A program made the position numbers and the translations under genes. The notes beneath the pieces are model-generated. The model had not been told where the DNA came from, ran no database searches, and was given only the letters and a program-made list of their open reading frames with translations. A stretch of 64,000 nt of DNA, taken from positions 639,277 through 703,276 of the forward strand of contig NC_007776.1 of NCBI RefSeq assembly GCF_000013225.1, given 5' to 3'. Shown one piece after another: positions 2,736 to 14,112 of the stretch. Numbering within the stretch: position 1 is the first letter of the stretch; each line of letters begins with the position of its first letter. The DNA is from Synechococcus sp. JA-2-3B'a(2-13). GTDB taxonomy: Bacteria > Cyanobacteriota > Cyanobacteriia > Thermostichales > Thermostichaceae.

Positions 2736-4937
2736 CTAGCCGGCAACAGCCGAACCCAACAAAGTCCGGCTCGCCTCTGCTTCCAGGGGCTGAGGCTCGT
2801 AGATTTTCAGCACGTACTCCGCTACCATGCGGTCGGTGTTGAAAACGGGGTTGAGCGTGCGGATCGCCTCCTTCATGCGGGCAATCCAACGACGTGGGAT
2901 CCCTTTCTCATCCCGGTCGTAGAACATGGGGATTACTTCATACTCCAACAAGTCGTAGAGGGAGTTGGCGTCCAAGTCGTCTTGGGCAGCGGGATCCAGA
3001 CCTTCGATTTCTTGGCCAATAGCCCAGCCATTGCGACCGTTGTAACCCTCCGGCCACCAGCCATCCAGCACCGACAAATTCAATCCCCCACTGAAGCCCA
3101 CCTTTTGCCCTGAGGTGCCAGAGGCTTCCAGAGGGCGTCGCGGGTTGTTCAGCCACACATCGACCCCCTGCACCAAATTGCGACCGACATAGGCATCGTA
3201 GTTTTCGATGAAGGCGACCCGGTTGGCCACCTCAGGCCGGTTCGACCATTCCACCACCCGCTGGATCAGGCGCTTGCCCCCTTCATCCCGCGGATGGGCC
3301 TTGCCGGCGAAGATAATTTGCACAGGGTACTCTTTGTTGGTGAAGATGCGGGTAATTCGCTCCAGATTTCGCAGGATCAAATCTCCTCGCTTGTAGGTGC
3401 TGAAGCGACGGGCAAACCCAATCGTCAAGACCTTGGGATCCAGCAACTGGTTGACCGCTTGGATGCGTTCGTTGCTTTCGCCGCGATTGCGCCGGGCCCG
3501 CAACACCCGGTGACGGGTGAAAGACACCAGCCGCTCCCGCAGAGCTTCTTTGCGCCGCCACAGTTCTTCATCTGGGATCTCTTCCACCTTGGCCCACAGT
3601 TCCGGGTCTGACACCCGCTCCGGCCAATCGGGGCCCAAGTACTGGTCGTAGAGATTCCAGAAGAGGGGGGAAACCCAGGTACGGGCGTGAACCCCATTGG
3701 TAATGGAGCTGATGGGCACCTCATCCACCGATCGCTCAGGGTAGAGCACATGCCACATTTCGCGAGAAACCCGTCCGTGGAGCTTGCTTACGCCATTGGC
3801 TGCCCGCGCGTACCGCAAAGCCAGCACCGTCATGTTAAAGCGCTCCCAGGGATCCCCGGTGCGCCGAGCTCCCAAAGCCAAAAATTGTTCCCGCGTCAGG
3901 CCCAGTTGAGGCCAGAAGGAGGCAAAGAACGCATCCATCTCATTGGGGCTAAAGGCATCGTGGCCAGCCGGCACCGGTGTATGGGTGGTAAACACACATT
4001 TTTCCCGCACCTTGGCCTCCGCCGTCTCGAAGGGGGTGCCCCGCGCCACTTCCTCCCGCAGCAACTCCAGCGTTAGGAAAGCAGCGTGCCCTTCATTCAT
4101 GTGATAGACCATGGGATCCAAACCCAACTGGCGCAGCAGACGCACCCCACCGATACCCAGGATGCACTCTTGGGCGATGCGGGTATCGGTGCTGCCCCCG
4201 TAGAGGTGGGCGGTAATCCAGCGGTCGATGGGGTCGTTCTCCGGCAGGTCGGTGTCCAGCAGAAAGAGCGGCACCCGGCCCACGTCTGCTCGCCAGGCAC
4301 GCGCCTTCACCAACCGCTGCCGCATCGCCACTTCCACCAACAGAGGGCTGCCATCCGGCTGGCGCACCAGAGTCAACGGCAGAGACTCAAACTCAGAGTC
4401 TTCGTAAAGCTCCCCCTGCCAGCCATTGTTGTCCAGGCGCTGTTGGAAGTAGCCCTGACGGTAGAGCAACCCGATGGCCACCAGGGGCACTCCCAAATCT
4501 GAAGCCGACTTGAGGTGATCGGCGGCCAACATACCCAGCCCGCCAGAGTAGGTGGGCAAAGACTCGTGCAAGCCGTATTCGGCACAGAAATAGGCAATAG
4601 GACGCTGCCAGTCGTAGGTTTTCATGGTGCGCTTGGCCCAGGTATCCTCAGCCGTCATGTACTGCCGATAGGACTGCACCATCCGGTTCAACGTGTTGAG
4701 GTAGTTCACATCGGTGGCCAAGGCTGCCAACCGCAAGTAGGAAACCTCCTCCAGCATGCGCACCGGGTTGTGGGAGGTTTTTTCCCACAGGGCGGGATCC
4801 ATTTCCCGGAAAATGGTGAGGTGATCCGGGTTCCAGGTCCACCAATAGTTGCGGGCGATCTCGCACAGGGGCGTGAGCGCTTCCGGCAGCACCGGACAAC
4901 GTTCGGGAAAAGCAGGAGCTAAGGTGGCAATGGACAT
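2736..4937 (-). CDS. glgP: alpha-glucan phosphorylase (GT35)
   Basis: Removes glucose units from glycogen ends as glucose-1-phosphate. The 733-aa protein is of the shorter MalP/GlgP type, with an N-terminal DUF3417-like segment (RNYWWTWNPDH). It has YFCAEYGLHESLPTYSGGLG near residue 115, the glycogen-site region GNEGHAAF-like (MNEGHAAFL), SSITNGVH, and the C-terminal EASGTSGQK region around the pyridoxal-phosphate site. It converges on ftsH. Together with glgA, the GH57 branching enzyme and treS-mak in this window it covers glycogen turnover. The 450-bp region upstream carries its promoter. Confidence 0.95.
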   Translation of the reverse strand: MSIATLAPAFPERCPVLPEALTPLCEIARNYWWTWNPDHLTIFREMDPALWEKTSHNPVRMLEEVSYLRLAALATDVNYLNTLNRMVQSYRQYMTAEDTWAKRTMKTYDWQRPIAYFCAEYGLHESLPTYSGGLGMLAADHLKSASDLGVPLVAIGLLYRQGYFQQRLDNNGWQGELYEDSEFESLPLTLVRQPDGSPLLVEVAMRQRLVKARAWRADVGRVPLFLLDTDLPENDPIDRWITAHLYGGSTDTRIAQECILGIGGVRLLRQLGLDPMVYHMNEGHAAFLTLELLREEVARGTPFETAEAKVREKCVFTTHTPVPAGHDAFSPNEMDAFFASFWPQLGLTREQFLALGARRTGDPWERFNMTVLALRYARAANGVSKLHGRVSREMWHVLYPERSVDEVPISSITNGVHARTWVSPLFWNLYDQYLGPDWPERVSDPELWAKVEEIPDEELWRRKEALRERLVSFTRHRVLRARRNRGESNERIQAVNQLLDPKVLTIGFARRFSTYKRGDLILRNLERITRIFTNKEYPVQIIFAGKAHPRDEGGKRLIQRVVEWSNRPEVANRVAFIENYDAYVGRNLVQGVDVWLNNPRRPLEASGTSGQKVGFSGGLNLSVLDGWWPEGYNGRNGWAIGQEIEGLDPAAQDDLDANSLYDLLEYEVIPMFYDRDEKGIPRRWIARMKEAIRTLNPVFNTDRMVAEYVLKIYEPQPLEAEASRTLLGSAVAG

Positions 4938-5390
4938 AGGACAGATACCTGGGGTTAAAGTTATGGGCTCGAAAAAGAAGAGGTAGAGGTCGATCCTGGT
5001 AAACGTATCTCAAAATTATTATTGAGCCGATCCTGAGGATTCTGAGGGGGGAATTCAAGATCTCTACAAAATCTTCAGGGGACGTAACCCAAATTTTCCA
5101 GGGCTTCTCTCGATCTTGTCATAGCAGCGCGGAGCCTTCAAAAGCAGCGTTCACAGGCAGCCCAGCTTTCGATTCCGGCAGAAGCTGCCCGTCTAGAAGC
5201 TGCCCGTCTATCGTAAGAGATGGTGCAACATTAGAGTTAACTCAAAGTTAACAAAATCTACAGAACCCCAACGAACCCTTGGGGAACCCCTCCGGTTCAA
5301 TTAAAATGCTGCTTCTCATAAGCTCTTAAAAACTGCAGCTACTTTTGCTACCAATCGATGATTTTGTTGGCTTCTCCTTGAAGTTGAGCC
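4938..5390. other. intergenic region upstream of glgP with a 15-bp tandem duplication
   Basis: No gene is seen in 453 bp. It is AT-richer than its surroundings. AGAAGCTGCCCGTCT is repeated exactly at 5180-5194 and 5195-5209. An imperfect palindrome (CTCAA...TTGAG, 5009-5026) lies about 70-90 bp upstream of the glgP start and could be an operator; that is a guess. Confidence 0.5.
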
Positions 5391-6575
5391 TTAACGTCCT
5401 TCCACCACTGCCAGACTGGTGTTGCGGTAGTAGTGGCTGAGGATCTGTTGGTAAGAGTAGTTTTGGCTGGCCAGGGCGGCAGCTCCCCACTGGCTCATGC
5501 CCACCCCGTGCCCGTAGCCCCGCCCATGAATCTCAAAGAAAGCTGGGAATGTCCCTGCCACAGGAGCCAGGCTGGCCGTAGTGGCGGCCTCCCCGCGCGG
5601 GCTAATGGCAATCTTTGTGCTGCGCAACCCAAGAGCCCGACGAAAATCGCCGGCATTGAGATCTCTGATCCCTTGGGATCCCGTCAAGCGCACCGTGATT
5701 GCCCGTCCCCACGGGGAGCTGCGCAGTACCTCCACAGAACGAATGGCACCGATCCCGGCAGCCAATTGCTGAATCTGTTGGGCAGGAACGGTGGCCGTCC
5801 AGCTAAACACCGGTGAGTGCTGATCGAAATCCGGCACCCCCTGTAAGTAGGGCCGCGATTCTAACCAGACGTTGCCTGCATCATCTGTATGTCCCCCCGC
5901 AGAGGAGTGGAAAACCGCATTGATCAACTGCCCCTGGTAGATGAGAACCTGCCCGGCGGTCTCACGGGCAGCCGCTTGGGTACGGCTGGATTCGGCAGCC
6001 ACTCCCTTGTAAACCTGCCAATCAATCCCGTTTCCTAAGTCAAAAGGCTGCTGGGAACGGCGACTGCGGTGGTAGAGGGCATAGGTGCGGGAGGCCACGG
6101 CTTGGGCTTTAAGAGCCTCCATGGGAAAACGGTGTCCCATCTCGCTGCCCACCACGCTGGAAACGTAGTCCTCCAAGCCAACTTGGTTGATGGCAATCAC
6201 CCCACGCTCGCCAGGGATCAGCTCCACCAAGCCACGGTACCAATTCTGGTCGATAAACACTAACCCATCGGAGGTGGTGGGCTGTAGGTAAAGACGTTCT
6301 CCCTGTTGGCCGGCCAAACTGACTGCTGAACCCGAACGGCTGGCCTGCAGCGGTTGCATGGCCTGAACCTCTGCCAGCGGCTGTCCCTGGGCATTCAATA
6401 GGCGGGCTCCGGTAGAGCTGCCGACGGTGACCTGGGGCTTGTTGACGGCAATACCTACCCGCAGCAGCACCCGTGCCTGCACCGGAAAGGTCAAGCACAG
6501 CCAAGCCCAAACCAGAAGGGCAATACTCCTAAGCCAAGCTGATGGGAGAGGAGAAAAGGAGAGGGCAATAGTCAC
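5391..6575 (-). CDS. SpoIID/LytB domain protein, exported
   Basis: Family members are lytic transglycosylases acting on stripped peptidoglycan glycan strands, or amidase enhancers. The 394-aa protein starts with a signal peptide (hydrophobic about 13-33, PVQA at the cleavage region). It carries the SpoIID hallmarks EDYVSSVVGSEM, ALKAQAVASRTYALY, HSSAGGHTDD and, near the C-terminus, GRGYGHGVGMSQWGA. The conserved catalytic-type Glu of the SEM motif is present. It is monocistronic as far as seen. It is probably a cell-wall remodelling enzyme; the exact activity is unknown. Confidence 0.88.
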   Translation of the reverse strand: MTIALSFSPLPSAWLRSIALLVWAWLCLTFPVQARVLLRVGIAVNKPQVTVGSSTGARLLNAQGQPLAEVQAMQPLQASRSGSAVSLAGQQGERLYLQPTTSDGLVFIDQNWYRGLVELIPGERGVIAINQVGLEDYVSSVVGSEMGHRFPMEALKAQAVASRTYALYHRSRRSQQPFDLGNGIDWQVYKGVAAESSRTQAAARETAGQVLIYQGQLINAVFHSSAGGHTDDAGNVWLESRPYLQGVPDFDQHSPVFSWTATVPAQQIQQLAAGIGAIRSVEVLRSSPWGRAITVRLTGSQGIRDLNAGDFRRALGLRSTKIAISPRGEAATTASLAPVAGTFPAFFEIHGRGYGHGVGMSQWGAAALASQNYSYQQILSHYYRNTSLAVVEGR

Positions 6576-7574: not shown

Positions 7575-8816
7575 ATGGCGCGGATTCTACGGCATACACT
7601 TTTGGCGATGGCTCTGTTTGGTGGAGGCGTCGCAGGTGGGGTCTGGCTATCGTCTCGAGCGGGGCAGGAGTGGTTACAGCAAACTCCCCTGATCACTTGG
7701 ACGCGACGGGCCAGTGAGGGAGTGGGATCCCTTTTGCCCTGGTCTGAGCCCCGCCCTGAGGCTGCGAATTCTGCTCCTCCCGCCGATGCTGTCCGGCCTT
7801 CCAATTTTATTGCTGCAGTCGCCCAAAAGGTCGGCCCAGCGGTGGTGCGCATCGATGCCACCCGCACTGTGTCGAGGGGGGTCAACCCAGAACTGTTCAA
7901 CCAGCCCCTGTTTCGCCGCTTCTTTGGAAATCAGATACCGCAGTTGCCGCAGGAGTTTCAGCAGGAGGGCACCGGATCGGGCTTTATCATCGACGCCAGT
8001 GGCCTGATCCTCACCAACGCCCATGTGGTGGAAGGCAGCGAGCGGGTCAGGGTTCACCTGCTGGATGGGCGCACCTTTGAAGGGGAGGTGAAGGGCTCAG
8101 ACCCGGTTACCGATATCGCGGTGATCAAGATTGAGGGGGAGAATCTGCCCACGGTTACTTTGGGCAACTCTGACTTGGTGCGACCGGGGGATTGGGCCAT
8201 CGCCATTGGCAACCCGCTGGGCCTGGACAATACCGTAACTGCTGGGATCATCAGCGCCGTCGGGCGCTCCTCCGGGCAAATTGGGGCTGTCAACAAGCGG
8301 GTGACTTTCCTGCAAACGGATGCGGCCATTAACCCCGGCAACTCGGGTGGCCCACTGCTGGATGCGGAAGGCCGCGTGATTGGGGTGAATACGGCCATCT
8401 TCCAGCGGGCCCAGAGTGTGGGCTTTGCCATCCCCATCAACCGCGCCATGGAAATTGCCGAGCAATTGATCCGGAATGGTCGGGTAGAGCACGCTTTCTT
8501 GGGCATTCGCATGATCACCCTCAACCCCGACATTGTGGCCCGCCTCAACCGCGACCCCGCTCGCCCCACCACGCTGACGGTGGAAGAAGGGGTTTTGATC
8601 GGGCAGGTGATTCCGGGATCCCCGGCTGAGGAGATTGGCTTGCGGGAGGGGGATGTGATCACTGAAATCAATGGGCAGGCCATCCACGATGCCGAGCAGG
8701 TGCAGCAGTTGGTGGAAGCCGCTGGGGTGGGCAATACGCTGACGCTGCGGGTCATCCGCGATGGACAGGCGCGCACCTTCCAGGTGAAAACTGGAGTGCT
8801 GCCCGTAGACTTCTAA
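7575..8816 (+). CDS. HtrA/Deg-type serine protease (HhoA/HhoB family)
   Basis: Periplasmic or thylakoid-lumen quality-control protease. The 413-aa protein has an N-terminal hydrophobic segment (signal/anchor, about residues 5-25). The trypsin-like domain has its triad in LTNAHVVEG (His), VTDIAVIK (Asp) and NPGNSGGPLLD (Ser). A single PDZ domain follows (from about residue 305, IPGSPAEEIGLREGDVI). The ATG at 7575 is preceded by GGGAGGG. An in-frame TTG 12 bp upstream overlaps that ribosome site and is rejected. Which of the three cyanobacterial Deg proteases it is remains open. Confidence 0.93.
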   Translation: MARILRHTLLAMALFGGGVAGGVWLSSRAGQEWLQQTPLITWTRRASEGVGSLLPWSEPRPEAANSAPPADAVRPSNFIAAVAQKVGPAVVRIDATRTVSRGVNPELFNQPLFRRFFGNQIPQLPQEFQQEGTGSGFIIDASGLILTNAHVVEGSERVRVHLLDGRTFEGEVKGSDPVTDIAVIKIEGENLPTVTLGNSDLVRPGDWAIAIGNPLGLDNTVTAGIISAVGRSSGQIGAVNKRVTFLQTDAAINPGNSGGPLLDAEGRVIGVNTAIFQRAQSVGFAIPINRAMEIAEQLIRNGRVEHAFLGIRMITLNPDIVARLNRDPARPTTLTVEEGVLIGQVIPGSPAEEIGLREGDVITEINGQAIHDAEQVQQLVEAAGVGNTLTLRVIRDGQARTFQVKTGVLPVDF

Positions 8817-8883
8817 GCAGTTTTATGTGCCGTCAATTTACTGATCCCCGTGACACAATGACCCTAGAGGCGGGGATCCAGAT

Positions 8884-10488
8884 ATGGCTTGGGCAGTTGG
8901 TGAACAATTGCAAGGGGGACGCTACCGCATCGAGGCCGTTTTGGGGGAGGGGGGCTTCGGCATCACCTACCGGGCCTGGGATAGCGTTCGTGCCGACCAG
9001 GTGGTTATCAAAGTTTTGAACGACAGCCTTCGTGAGGATCCCGACTATCCCCACTTCCAGCAGAACTTCATGAATGAGGCGCTGCAACTGGCCCGCTGCC
9101 ACCACCCCCATGTGGTGAAGGTGGAAGAAGTGATCTGGGAGCAGGAGCGCTGGTGTATTGTGATGGAGTACATCCGCGGCCAGACTCTGCACCAGCTTCT
9201 GCGGCAAAAAGGGCCGTTGCCCCTGCCGGAAGCCCTGCGCCTGACGCGGGAGGTGGGATCTGCCCTGATGGCCTTGCACGAACAGGGGATCCTGCATCGG
9301 GATGTGAAGCCAGCCAACATCATGGTGCGGGAGGGATCCGGGCAGGCAGTTTTGATCGACTTTGGCCTAGCTCGCGGCTACACCCAAGGTCTGATCCAAC
9401 GCCACACCTCCTACGGCACCGATGGCTATGCTCCTCTAGAGCAATACGACAGCTTGCGCCGCCGCGGCGCCTTCACCGATGTCTACGCCTTGGCAGCAAC
9501 CCTCTACACGGCGCTGACGGGGATGGTGCCTATGTGTGCGCCAGTGCGGGCCACAGGCCGCCAGTTGGATACCCCTCGCAGCCTTAACCCCAACATTCCC
9601 GAGGTTGTGGAGGCTGCCATTCTCAAAGGGATGGCTCTCCACCCAGAAGAGCGCCCGCAAACCATGGCCGAGTGGCTGGCACTGTTACCGGCAGAAGCCT
9701 CTCAACAAGGGAGGAAGCCGGTTGCTTTTGAGCCAGCCATCCGCACCCAAGAGCTGAGGGAGCTGGAGCAGATCTTGGCCCAGCCTCCAGAACCCCAAGA
9801 CGAGCTGGAACAGCTCCTGTCCCGGCACTCGGCGGAAGAGCTAGAGCAACTGGTGGCACCTCCCACCCCTGCCACTGCCAAAAAAGCTGGAAGAGAAGAG
9901 GGATCCGGATCCCTGATTTTTCCTGAGGTCTGTCCAGAGGAGAGAGGGAAGGGGGGATCCCTGCCCGGAACTCTCTCTTGGCCAGAGTGGGTGGGGGAAG
10001 CAGCCCCTGCCTTGCAAGGTCTGTGGGATCGGCTGCGAGCGGGGCAGTGGGGGGAGGCGGATCGCTGGACGACAGCCCTGATGCTGAAGCTTGCTGGGCG
10101 CTCGCAAGTGGGCTTTTTTGATCCCAAGGATGTTCAGGCCTTCCCCTGCCCCATGCTGCGGCTGATTGACCAACTGTGGGTGCGGGCCAGCCATGGGCGC
10201 TTTGGCTTTAGCGTTCAAAAGCAACTGTGGCAAGGATGCGACCCCGGAGGAACCTCAATAGGCAGATCGCGATCCTTCTCCGCCTTGCCCCGCGAAGAGT
10301 GTATGGGGGAAGCCGTGGGTTGGCGGATCCAAGGTCGCTGGCTGGGGTACGGCGAGCTCAAAACCAGCCTGGATGCACCGCCAGGACATCTGCCTGTCGG
10401 CTTTTTTTGGGGCTACTCGGGTGGCTTGCGCTCGGCGCTGCTGACGCTGGATCGAGTGGTGCTGAAAAAGCTAAAAGCCTGTTTCTAA
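8884..10488 (+). CDS. Ser/Thr protein kinase with C-terminal GUN4 domain
   Basis: The 534-aa protein joins two modules. Residues about 14-270 form a Hanks-type kinase: GEGGFG loop, VIK lysine (Lys43), HRDVKPANIM catalytic loop near 138, DFGLA near 159, then SYGTDGYAPLEQY in place of the usual APE. A Glu/Gln-rich linker follows. Residues about 375-534 are a GUN4 domain, recognised by AFPCPMLRLIDQLWVRAS and GRFGFSVQKQLW. GUN4 binds porphyrins and activates Mg-chelatase. Kinase-GUN4 fusions may couple tetrapyrrole status to phosphorylation, which is inference. A decayed copy of its last codons lies at 11848-11979. Confidence 0.93.
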   Translation: MAWAVGEQLQGGRYRIEAVLGEGGFGITYRAWDSVRADQVVIKVLNDSLREDPDYPHFQQNFMNEALQLARCHHPHVVKVEEVIWEQERWCIVMEYIRGQTLHQLLRQKGPLPLPEALRLTREVGSALMALHEQGILHRDVKPANIMVREGSGQAVLIDFGLARGYTQGLIQRHTSYGTDGYAPLEQYDSLRRRGAFTDVYALAATLYTALTGMVPMCAPVRATGRQLDTPRSLNPNIPEVVEAAILKGMALHPEERPQTMAEWLALLPAEASQQGRKPVAFEPAIRTQELRELEQILAQPPEPQDELEQLLSRHSAEELEQLVAPPTPATAKKAGREEGSGSLIFPEVCPEERGKGGSLPGTLSWPEWVGEAAPALQGLWDRLRAGQWGEADRWTTALMLKLAGRSQVGFFDPKDVQAFPCPMLRLIDQLWVRASHGRFGFSVQKQLWQGCDPGGTSIGRSRSFSALPREECMGEAVGWRIQGRWLGYGELKTSLDAPPGHLPVGFFWGYSGGLRSALLTLDRVVLKKLKACF

Positions 10489-10523
10489 AAAACCTGGCTT
10501 GAAATGACTAAAATGGGTAGCCA

Positions 10524-10865
10524 TCAATTCTTGAAAGGGGGGATGCTCTTTTCTTGTGGGTTTTCGCGAATAGCTAGACCCAAGTGAATCAATGCCGTCT
10601 CAACGGTATTGACCTGCTCTGCTAAAGTTTTCCACCCTCTTGCCTTTAAGCCATAACATTTGCCAAAGTAAGCTCGAGCTGCTGCAAAGGAAGCAAAGGT
10701 TTTTTTAAGAGTCGCTACGGTCCAGGGCTTGGCATTCAGCCGCAGCCAATTTCGTTGACCTTGCTGCTGTTGCTCGGTGATGAGTTGGTCTGTCAAGCTA
10801 ACAAGCTCAGCATAGTTGCGCCGCGAGGTCGCGATTGCCGTTTCAAGACTCTCGATGAGACCCAT
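10524..10865 (-). CDS. hypothetical protein, second gene of HicA-like cassette
   Basis: 113-aa protein not assigned to a family. It is mostly helical, with a conserved-looking core KKTFASFAAARAYFGKCYG and a basic patch. Start at 10865 has AGGAGA 6 nt upstream. It overlaps the 3' end of the preceding 266-aa gene by 23 bp, so the two are probably translationally coupled. No membrane segment or signal peptide. Local GC is lower than in flanking genes, suggesting a foreign origin. It may be the partner or antidote of the upstream protein; nothing in its sequence proves this. Confidence 0.7.
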   Translation of the reverse strand: MGLIESLETAIATSRRNYAELVSLTDQLITEQQQQGQRNWLRLNAKPWTVATLKKTFASFAAARAYFGKCYGLKARGWKTLAEQVNTVETALIHLGLAIRENPQEKSIPPFKN

Positions 10866-11643
10866 GGTTGTTCTCCTGAGGCAACTTCCCTTGATAAGAC
10901 TCCTGTTCTTTCTCCTGAAGCAACTTTCTAGAACCGGCAGAGAGCAAGTTGGTTTCAAAAACAGACTTGATGTTGTTCAGGTAACTTTGCAATAAGCTCT
11001 TAACCCATAGGATGGGAATTTGGTTTACCGCATTCTGAAGCTGGTCGAAGAGATGCTTGAGCTGCTTCAGAGCTACGATAGCATGACCGAGAACTTCTTG
11101 CGCTTGAAGCTGCTCTTCCACAAGCTCTCTCATTCTGTTGGCTAGCCGCTGATTCTCAAGTTCTTTCTCGGTGAGCAAACTAAGAGCTGCTTCCTCAGTC
11201 TCGACTATTTTAAATTCAAGTTTTTGGTTCTGCTCTTCCAGAAACTCAATCTGCTTAGTTAGTAAATCCGCCTCAACCCTAAAGCTAACACCTCTATTCG
11301 CTGGAAAGCTAATAAGTAGGTCGCTGTACTCTTGCTCTTGAAGCTGCAGCTCTCTGAGTACAGGCTCTGCTAGTTCGGATAAGACTTTGTGAGCTAATCC
11401 TACTTTCAAAGTATCTCCGCCGCCGTGTCCGGGAATAGGAATTCTTAAATCACCCCGAACAGCCTGCGTGCTATGTCTGGCACGTCGCTGAACAATTTCC
11501 CAGCCCCACTCTTTTGCTTGACGCAAAATATCCCGTTTTCGCCAATTCCTTGGAGCCTGAATAATGGCTTGGATATTTCTCTGCTGCTCTATAATTTCAT
11601 TTCGCCTCTTGATGAGATACCCTAGCTCTTCTTCGTCGGACAT
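10843..11643 (-). CDS. HicA-like domain plus coiled-coil protein (unknown function)
   Basis: 266 aa. Residues about 33-92 resemble the HicA (YcfA) double-stranded-RNA-binding-like fold: a helix with AKEWGWEIVQRR, then a histidine (His57) where HicA toxins have their catalytic His, a strand, and PGHGGGDTLKVGLAHKVL matching the HicA Lys/Gly turn and last helix. Residues about 120-235 are a long Leu/Glu/Gln-rich coiled coil. HicA toxins are normally 60-80 aa stand-alone RNases, so this would be an enlarged relative. The gene precedes and overlaps the 113-aa gene. The similarity is judged by eye, without a profile search. Confidence 0.6.
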   Translation of the reverse strand: MSDEEELGYLIKRRNEIIEQQRNIQAIIQAPRNWRKRDILRQAKEWGWEIVQRRARHSTQAVRGDLRIPIPGHGGGDTLKVGLAHKVLSELAEPVLRELQLQEQEYSDLLISFPANRGVSFRVEADLLTKQIEFLEEQNQKLEFKIVETEEAALSLLTEKELENQRLANRMRELVEEQLQAQEVLGHAIVALKQLKHLFDQLQNAVNQIPILWVKSLLQSYLNNIKSVFETNLLSAGSRKLLQEKEQESYQGKLPQENNHGSHRES

Positions 11644-11847
11644 ATGATAACATCCTTAGATGAGACTTTCACACTTAGCCTATCCGGTCTTTACGGAGAC
11701 TAGGGGAAAGTTATGCGGCAAAGCCTTACATCTCAAAAAACATTGATACTAAGAAATATTTTGTAGCTTTGTCCGCGATCTTCCTCAGTAATTCCCAGGA
11801 CAATCTAGAGGCAGTCAGACTTGGTTCTGCTTGCGAAAAAGGGTGAG

Positions 11848-11979
11848 TGGCTGGGGTTGGGGAGCTTACAGCCGGCTTGGAAGGGCCAAAAATCACCTGC
11901 CGGTGGGCTGTTCCGCGAATACTCAGGCGGCCTGCGCACGGCGCTGCCGATGCTGAAAAGGCTAAAAGCCTGCCTCTAA
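11848..11979 (+). pseudogene. decayed 3' end of a second GUN4-domain gene
   Basis: The last part is clearly homologous to the end of the kinase-GUN4 gene at 10350-10488. HLPVG is followed, after a frameshift near 11905, by YSGGLRTALPMLKRLKACL and a stop; the kinase ends YSGGLRSALL...KKLKACF. The bases around the two stop codons are also nearly identical. No start or upstream GUN4 body remains, so this is a fragment left by duplication or recombination. Confidence 0.75.
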
Positions 11980-12032
11980 AAAAACTCCCCTCTCCCAGAG
12001 GAGAGGGGTCAGGGGCGAGGGATCCAAGAGCC

Positions 12033-12193
12033 TTAGTAGCGATGCACCAACTTGTTGATGGGCTTGAAGATGTCTGCCTCAAACTTTTTGCCCTTGAGCA
12101 TGCGGTTCCAATAGAGCCAGGGTAATAGATGCACCTTGGCTAGGTACATGGAGTAGCGCTCCCGCGTTGGGTCCAGGGGGAAGGAGGGAGCTA
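12033..12193 (-). pseudogene. C-terminal gene fragment truncated by IS5-family insertion
   Basis: An open frame reading DLAPSFPLDPTRERYSMY and then a Trp/Lys-rich tail ending KPINKLVHRY runs to a TAA at 12033-12035. Composition and codon use look coding, but the 5' part is missing: the frame enters the IS at 12194, and the sequence on the other side of the IS carries an IS605-type hairpin instead of more gene. I do not recognise the family. Confidence 0.5.
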
Positions 12194-12247
12194 GGTCGTG
12201 TTGATCTTATGTTAGGATAGAGAGAATAACTTATATGAGGAAAGAAG

Positions 12248-12998
12248 ATGAAGTTGGTTTTTTTAGATGAAAACAAATGGCAGAAGATATTGGCTTTTTT
12301 ACAGACAGAAGAGAGAGTTAACATTGGGAAAGAAGCAAACTGCAAACAGTTTATTGAAGCAGTTCTTTGGATAGCCCGTTCCGGTGCTCCTTGGCGCTAC
12401 CTCCCAGAAGGATATGGCAAATGGTACACCATCTATCAAAGATTCCACCGGTGGAGCGGTGGAGTCGTTTTGGAGTGTGGGAACGGATGTTCAAGTATTT
12501 TATTGACGACCCTGATTTAGAGCATCTCATTATTGATTCAACCATGGTTCGAGCGCACTCCTGTGCTGCCGGAAAAAAGGGGAGCAAGCTTTGGGGAGAA
12601 GCCGAGGCGGATACAGCACCAAGATTCATGTGAGTGTAGATGGGTTGGGAAATCCGCTGGAATTGAGAATAACTGGCGGAGAAAAGAGCGATATTACTCA
12701 AGGGGAAGAATTGATAGAGGGCTGGCAGAGAAAGGATACCAAAGTAATTGGGGATAAAGGATATGATGCGGATAAGTTGATTGAGAAGATAGGGGAAGCT
12801 CAAGCGGTTATTCCGCCTAAAAGGAATAGAAAGACGCAGCGGCATTATGACAAGCATCTGTATCAAGAGAGGCATTTAATCGAATGCTTTTTTCATAAGT
12901 TAAAGCAGTACCGGCATCTATGTTCTCGTTTTGACAAATTGGCCAGGAACTTCTTGAGTTTTCTCTATCTCGTCAGTGCTCTCTTTTGGCTCAAATGA
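12248..12998 (+). pseudogene. IS5-family DDE transposase (OrfA/OrfB), inactivated by 8-bp duplication
   Basis: The reading begins at ATG 12248. At 12450-12465 GGTGGAGC is followed at once by GGTGGAGT; deleting one unit restores HRWSRFGVWERMF, so the duplication is the lesion. Further on A AAA AAG (12573-12579) is a canonical -1 slippery heptamer that joins the first part to the OrfB frame ending at 12998, as is normal for this group. DDE residues: LIIDSTMVRAH, VIGDKGYDAD and LIECFFHKLKQYR. In its present form only a truncated OrfA would be made, so it could move only with help in trans. Confidence 0.85.
12573..12579 (+). promoter_or_regulatory. -1 ribosomal frameshift heptamer in IS5-family transposase
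   Basis: A AAA AAG in the OrfA frame; slipping one base back enters the frame GEQALGRSRGGYSTK..., which completes the transposase. The heptamer and position are as expected for IS427-group elements. Confidence 0.7.
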
Positions 12999-13025
12999 AA
13001 GATCAACACAACCTAAAAAGATAAT

Positions 13026-13110
13026 GGTATAGCATGCAGGGATCCATGTATCCCGACGCTAACCCTGCGGGTAGAGCGCGGGGCTTGTTGCCCCCGCACC
13101 CCCGTTGGTT
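13026..13110 (-). repeat. orphan IS605-type end hairpin
   Basis: The stem-loop at 13052-13083 (CGCT...AGCG around ACCC/GGGT) belongs to the same family as hairpins at 25407-25439, 25583-25606 and 40284-40315. It shares with the 25.6-kb copy the flanking GGGGGTG(C/T)GGGGG and GGGATACA. No second hairpin or tnpB is nearby, so this is a remnant. Confidence 0.6.
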
Positions 13111-13260
13111 AAACATTAGGTTGCCCAGGAAAGGGATCCCAGCGGCACTCACGTTGTATTATTGGCTACTTCAGCCGGCAGGTCGAGCCTCTTTTGGGGA
13201 ATCGGGCTAGATTGGATCCCACTGTTGATTTCTGCTGTCCACTTCTAGGGTTCTGGCGGC

Positions 13261-14112
13261 ATGAGTTCTCCGGCCATCCAGTGGTATCCCGGCCACATTG
13301 CCAAGGCGATCGGCCAGTTGCGGGAAGAGTTGCAGCGGGTGGATGCAGTCATCGAGGTGTTGGATGCGCGGATCCCGTTGGCCAGTCGTCATCCTGAGCT
13401 GGGCCGGTGGCTGGGGGAAAAACCTCGCCTCCTGGCTCTGAACAGGGCGGACTGCATTGAGGCTGGGGATCTGAAAGCTTGGCAGGAGTATTTTTTACGG
13501 CAAGGGATCCCTGTCTATCCCACCAATGGCCGCTCAGGAGAAGGGGTGAATCGCCTCAAGCAGGCGGTCTTGCACTTGGGGCAATCGGTCAACACGCGGC
13601 GTCAACAGCGGGGCATGCGACCGCGGGCCGTTCGGGCGGTGGTGGTGGGCTTTCCCAATGTGGGCAAATCTGCTTTGCTGAATCGACTGTTGGGGCGGCG
13701 GGCAGCTGAGAGCGCAGCACGTCCTGGGGTGACGCGGCAACTGCGGTGGGTGCGGCTGGGGGGAGAGTTGGATCTGTTGGACTCGCCGGGCATCATACCG
13801 CCCTCTCTGCCGGATCAACAGGCGGCCTCTCTATTGGCCATCTGCGATGACATCGGCGAAGCGGCCTACGATCCCGAACGGGTGGCGGCCCACTTTTTGG
13901 ATCAAGTGCTGAGGGTGCAGCCCCAAGCCGGATCTCTCTTGCAAAAGCGCTACGGTTGGCCGGATCCGATCCCTCCCGGTGGTGCTGCAGTGCAGGAGTT
14001 GGCCGAGCGGCGGTATCAAGGGGATCCCCAGCGGGCGGCACGGCAAGTTCTCAACGACTACCGCAAGGGCTTGCTGGGGCCGCTGGCCTTGGAACTCCCT
14101 CCCAAGGCTTGA
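13261..14112 (+). CDS. rbgA: ribosome biogenesis GTPase YlqF/RbgA
   Basis: Circularly permuted GTPase needed for late 50S assembly. Motif order shows the permutation: G4 as NRAD (near residue 61, usual NKxD), then G1 GFPNVGKS near 137, G2 region PGVTRQ, and G3 DSPG near 177. A C-terminal helical domain follows. The length of 283 aa is typical. The N-terminal WYPGHIAKA is a strong family signature. It is convergent with the radical SAM gene. Confidence 0.95.
   Translation: MSSPAIQWYPGHIAKAIGQLREELQRVDAVIEVLDARIPLASRHPELGRWLGEKPRLLALNRADCIEAGDLKAWQEYFLRQGIPVYPTNGRSGEGVNRLKQAVLHLGQSVNTRRQQRGMRPRAVRAVVVGFPNVGKSALLNRLLGRRAAESAARPGVTRQLRWVRLGGELDLLDSPGIIPPSLPDQQAASLLAICDDIGEAAYDPERVAAHFLDQVLRVQPQAGSLLQKRYGWPDPIPPGGAAVQELAERRYQGDPQRAARQVLNDYRKGLLGPLALELPPKA

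Follow-up and report, generated by a model that had tools for sequence, protein, structure and literature searches.

The locus downstream of the kinase-GUN4 gene of Synechococcus sp. JA-2-3B'a(2-13) raises the question of how the 3' end of one gene came to stand on both sides of a pair of other genes. In the 64,000-nucleotide stretch of this genome that we analyzed (the window), two overlapping minus-strand genes, P2 and P3, have the intact end of kinase-GUN4 on one side and a second, decayed version of this end on the other (Table 1). The original prediction saw here an inserted cassette that had either landed between tandem GUN4 genes or carried a GUN4 end with it, as integrases that restore gene ends do. 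To follow this up, the site was compared among six genomes of the genus, with the close comparison based on 132-150 bp and on three close genomes: the window's own (G000), G001, which we take to be strain JA-3-3Ab, and G002, Synechococcus sp. M44_DOE_062. The duplicated end is most likely a homology-based scar, such as gene uptake or an exchange with relatives would leave, and does not look like the product of a dedicated integrase.

Table 1. Features of the kinase-GUN4 locus and its right flank, in window coordinates.
Feature	Position	Strand	Remarks
Ser/Thr kinase-GUN4 fusion gene	8884..10488	+	Intact, 534 aa; the 3' end forms the left repeat copy
Left copy of the repeated gene end	10339..10496	+	Local alignment; E 1e-11 in flanking-repeat search
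Low-GC insert	10489..11847		GC 0.457; present at the same place in G001, missing from G002
P3, second gene of the pair	10524..10865	-	113 aa, mostly helical; relatives in G001 and elsewhere
P2, first gene of the pair	10843..11643	-	266 aa; HicA-like N-terminal domain and long coiled coil; overlaps the first bases of P3 with its 3' end
Right copy, decayed GUN4 3' end	11848..11987	+	Runs on into the original downstream flank
Terminator-like hairpin of a dispersed family	11983..12008		Exact sites: 5 in G000, 20 in G001, 0 in G002, 0 in G003; reversed-pattern control 0
Remaining 3' part and tail of a sulfide:quinone-reductase-like (sqr) gene, truncated by the IS	12001..12194	-	88% match to G001
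IS element	12192..13015	+	DDE transposase (DDE_Tnp_1, 1.5e-16); 17-nt inverted ends

The kinase-GUN4 protein matches the Pfam families Pkinase at residues 14-219 (1.1e-38) and GUN4 at residues 378-506 (2.6e-29). All six genus genomes carry exactly one orthologue, and each has in addition one separate GUN4 match that is unlinked to it. The two copies of the gene end gave a local alignment score of 72, compared to 26 for the best of 100 mononucleotide shuffles, and when the 132-bp gene-end stretch was scored along the window, the right flank reached 59 and the best of 1932 other positions 31. Within the coding part, 99 of 132 aligned bases are identical (75%), and the right copy contains several small frame-breaking indels and one deletion of 11-15 bases. 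The original prediction was thus correct in that the gene end recurs, frameshifted, to the right of the cassette, and also in placing the cassette exactly between the two copies, the insert beginning just after position 10488 and ending just before 11848. The repeat spans about residues 486-534 of the protein, which take in only the final ~20 residues of the Pfam GUN4 domain together with the C-terminal tail, and the similarity extends a few bases beyond the stop codon, through a TAAAAAA(A)CT found at both sides.

The right copy begins within the gene and holds no complete domain. Changes found only in this remnant, counted by codon position, amount to 5/37, 6/40 and 6/26, and they appear to follow no strong coding pattern, as in unconstrained sequence. 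Judged by its sequence, the remnant is a neutrally decaying fragment without a start rather than a second gene. A DNA search of 39 relatives with the remnant gave matches in three genomes, all of the same genus: the window's own (twice), G001, and G002 (40 bases).

The related genomes offer both a filled and an empty version of the site. The P2-P3 pair is present in two of the six genus genomes, the window's own and G001. In G001 the insert has the same site and orientation, and window positions 10555-11770 match positions 4705-5924 of its locus (L048) at 77% DNA identity. To the right of the G001 insert there is no coding GUN4 remnant beyond 28-30 bp similar to the final codons and the bases that follow the stop (83%, E 0.017). 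Equally high scores occurred at 9 of 1700 control positions, and this short repeat, which overlaps the dispersed terminator-like sequence, could partly be due to chance. G002 has no insert, and its single GUN4 end joins the sqr flank directly; the right flank of the window (11951-12194) matches G002 just after that end at 89%. The remnant therefore adjoins the same sqr flank as the GUN4 gene of G002, and not the unrelated neighbours expected of a separate old pseudogene. In G003, the kinase-GUN4 gene is followed by what we take to be a P-type-ATPase-like gene, with neither insert nor sqr.

Next, we estimated the age of the insert. Between the window and G001, dS is 0.65 for htrA, 0.63 for kinase-GUN4, 0.65 for P2 and 0.61 for P3, with broadly overlapping bootstrap ranges. 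Because the insert genes are as diverged as their neighbours, the insert appears to be about as old as the split between the window and G001 lineages, although a transfer of the insert between both lineages near the time of the split would give the same picture. The dN/dS values of 0.33 (P2) and 0.25 (P3) suggest that both genes are maintained. Divergence between the window and G002 is lower (dS 0.25 and 0.37). Given that the window is closer to G002 than to G001 and that the insert dates to the G001 split, the empty site of G002 most likely represents loss or allele replacement and not the original state.

The remnant itself is harder to date. Its neutral distance from private changes is 0.16-0.19 (95% range 0.08-0.31) and its maximum-likelihood (ML) branch length is 0.30, while the value expected per branch (half of dS) is ~0.31 since the G001 split, and 0.13-0.18 since the G002 split. 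These distances do not tell whether the duplication dates from the time of the insert or came afterwards; taken by itself, the private-change distance, being less than ~0.31, means that the duplication could be younger than the insert. In the ML tree the remnant groups with G001 or at the base, and not with the window's own gene. Forcing it together with the window gene alone cost 9.6 lnL units (p-AU 0.056, a value for which the program warned of too few replicates). The remnant has 10 sites in common with G001 as opposed to the window gene and G002, and 3 in common with the window gene as opposed to G001 and G002; the latter need either conversion between the copies or a later duplication.

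A further observation concerns the window gene rather than the remnant. In the last ~320 bp of kinase-GUN4 (10166-10488), the window groups with G002 at 62 of 75 informative sites, compared to 101 of 242 upstream, and none of 1000 permutations was as extreme. This part of the gene has recently been exchanged with a G002-like allele, which partly explains why the remnant does not group with the window gene.

We propose, as the best explanation and at about an even chance of being correct, that a one-sided, homology-based integration placed the two-gene unit behind kinase-GUN4 before the window and G001 lineages split, that the old gene end was thereby orphaned, and that the insert was later lost in G002. 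The low-GC unit would have integrated directly behind the gene, with the GUN4 3' end providing homology at just one side, by a single crossover or by a homologous anchor combined with an illegitimate join. The product would then read, in order, intact GUN4 gene, insert, and original GUN4 3' end on its original downstream sequence. The orphaned end has no start and has decayed neutrally, with ~130 bp left in the window and ~28 bp left in G001. Loss of the insert from the G002 lineage would then account for the one clean gene end there. The two repeats could plausibly have recombined with each other, or an empty allele could have taken the place of the filled one; like sequences on either side of an insert make its loss easy, in keeping with the state of G002.

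The right copy runs into the sqr flank as the gene end does in the empty site of G002, as expected of a homologous anchor on one side with the old end kept beyond the insert. It is continuous with the original downstream flank and so looks like the original gene end, which homology-based integration or allele exchange would have left in place. A GUN4 end carried in with the insert and an original end left behind are indistinguishable, as they give the same sequence picture. The joint near 11825-11848 shows no clear homology, though it is blurred by age.

A one-sided integration yields the observed arrangement in one step, but so does the later addition of a gene end from an empty site. In this version, no long duplication would have accompanied the arrival of the insert. 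The second GUN4 end would have come later and in the window lineage alone, through DNA of a relative with the empty site that underwent recombination in the right flank and became joined illegitimately to the edge of the insert. We regard this as a serious possibility, somewhat less probable than the integration proposed above. It would account for the missing coding remnant in G001, and the private distance of the remnant is in better agreement with the window-G002 split than with the G001 split. Exchange with G002-like alleles has moreover occurred in the directly adjoining end of the gene, and PMC12755884 describes, in the part that bears on this point, exchange between species as frequent in this hot-spring population. 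On the other hand, the ML branch of the remnant is as long as the G001 split, and G001 seems to have a short second end too.

The two routes named in the original prediction fare less well. Duplications are common in bacteria, and the same order of parts would result if the GUN4 gene, or only its end, had simply been duplicated in tandem and the insert had then entered between the two. However, none of the six genus genomes contains tandem GUN4 genes, their second GUN4 matches being unlinked, and the remnant starts inside the gene without a complete domain, so that we consider this route improbable. Site-specific integration by a gene-end-restoring integrase that has since been lost seems more improbable still. 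In genomic islands with an integrase that rebuilds the 3' end of its target gene, one side has an intact end and the other a partial copy, and the GUN4 locus shares this outline. It differs in that the copies are only 75% alike, with indels, and form a ~140-bp repeat rather than a short exact att core; that the insert contains only P2 and P3, with no integrase gene and no tRNA; and that at eight of the ten loci with the pair or one of its genes, relatives at other sites included, no flanking gene-end repeat was found below E 0.05. An Rfam search of positions 8500-14000 gave no match. The original reading is supported by the foreign composition of the insert (GC 0.457 vs 0.586 for the window), the empty single-end site in G002 and the duplicated gene end around the insert.

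Homology-facilitated illegitimate recombination offers a close parallel, as it also places new genes after a conserved anchor and displaces the old 3' end, which is kept as an orphan, with no integrase involved. In a passage of PMC5361080, such recombination is proposed for displaced 3' ends in Vibrio T6SS clusters, and Rhs loci are mentioned. The GUN4 orphan differs in that it is decaying, without apparent use, and in that its joint is not provable from sequence. Transformation merodiploids are a second parallel: PMC3784515 describes, in the section relevant here, how incoming DNA that is partly repeated in the chromosome gives rise to duplications. Those measure several kb to more than 100 kb and some are unstable, whereas the GUN4 repeat is ~140 bp long and old. 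The locus offers a dated example of accessory genes that come and go at one position, with no dedicated integrase, in a cyanobacterial population that recombines, and it illustrates that gene-end duplicates beside inserts need not imply site-specific integration.

Beyond the remnant, the right flank has a separate history. The gene at 12001..12194 is presumably sqr, as judged from its protein sequence, and only 194 bp of the corresponding G001 region were found in the window's genome, so the sqr-like gene has been lost here. The IS that cuts it occurs at 17 places in the genome at 98-100%, this one included. We considered a link between the IS and the insert and rejected it, since the IS is bounded by 17-nt ends of its own (12192 and 13015) and is repeated at those 17 places in the genome.

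The P2-P3 pair itself is mildly interesting and worth a separate look, while the gene-end event is ordinary. The N-terminal domain of P2 weakly resembles HicA toxins (Pfam PF07927), both by profile and by predicted fold. The window's P2 stays below the threshold of Pfam HicA_toxin (E 0.024, 15.2 bits vs a cut-off of 27), and seven of the nine P2 family members match this profile at E<=1, the best at 1.9e-5. The domain is predicted to fold as helix-strand-strand-strand-helix. A fold search ranked the HicA chain 6g26_F and 1whz among the top matches (probabilities 0.90 and 0.82, with poor E values of 0.4-0.65); the latter is titled a hypothetical protein, and we take it to be HicA. When P2 was used in a profile search against PDB sequences, the matches were of coiled-coil type, with no HicA among the 60 of 68 listed. 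A His at the R/K-H position, perhaps the catalytic one, is present in six of nine members and a later GH in all nine. P2 differs from HicA toxins in its extra long coiled coil, in the lack of a recognised HicB partner, and in the absence of the His in three of nine members. For P3, no family match was found in Pfam, PADLOC, NCBIfam or PHROG, and a fold search with its structure model (pLDDT 74) returned nothing useful. The PADLOC defence library had no match for the pair, and a phage or plasmid origin was discarded because no relative turned up in viral contigs, plasmids or PHROGs.

One could imagine that P2-P3 is an undescribed module of two genes, patchily distributed among thermophilic cyanobacteria. 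With a HicA-like RNA-binding domain at its core, it might serve in defence or as a toxin-antitoxin pair, and it would move between populations without a recombinase of its own through homology in the end of a neighbouring gene, with the decayed GUN4 end as its scar. We consider this unlikely as a whole; if the pair were a conflict module, its presence/absence sites would make a good natural test bed.

The pair is found at other loci as well, at differing sites and with a patchy spread among cyanobacteria. In an even sample of 386 cyanobacterial genomes, P2 had four matches, including the window's own, and P3 had three, also including its own. One of the P2 matches (G218) covers only the coiled coil and was not confirmed by tblastn, so it was dropped as a relative. 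With the P2 profile, 7 of 29 genomes in the family of G283 matched. Six newly fetched loci carry P2 and P3 side by side in five cases, and the sixth (G410) holds only a broken fragment. Altogether, the two genes are adjacent in nine loci (the window, L048, L081, L082, L093, L094, L095, L097 and L098), and L083 has P3 alone. The pair appears to have moved, since its neighbours differ among the loci read. We rejected the idea that it always brings a duplicated gene end, because only the window (E 1e-11) and G001 (E 0.017) among the ten loci fall below E 0.05. In G407 (L094 4859-6191), the pair lies between genes that we take to be pepP-like and EcsC-like, behind the pepP-like one. It is codirectional with both, and a rule that the pair is always convergent with a gene end was dropped for this reason. 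Several relatives in the genus of G407 have the same region without the insert. In G094 and G408, sequence like the P2 upstream region is kept at this type of site, perhaps as traces of loss.
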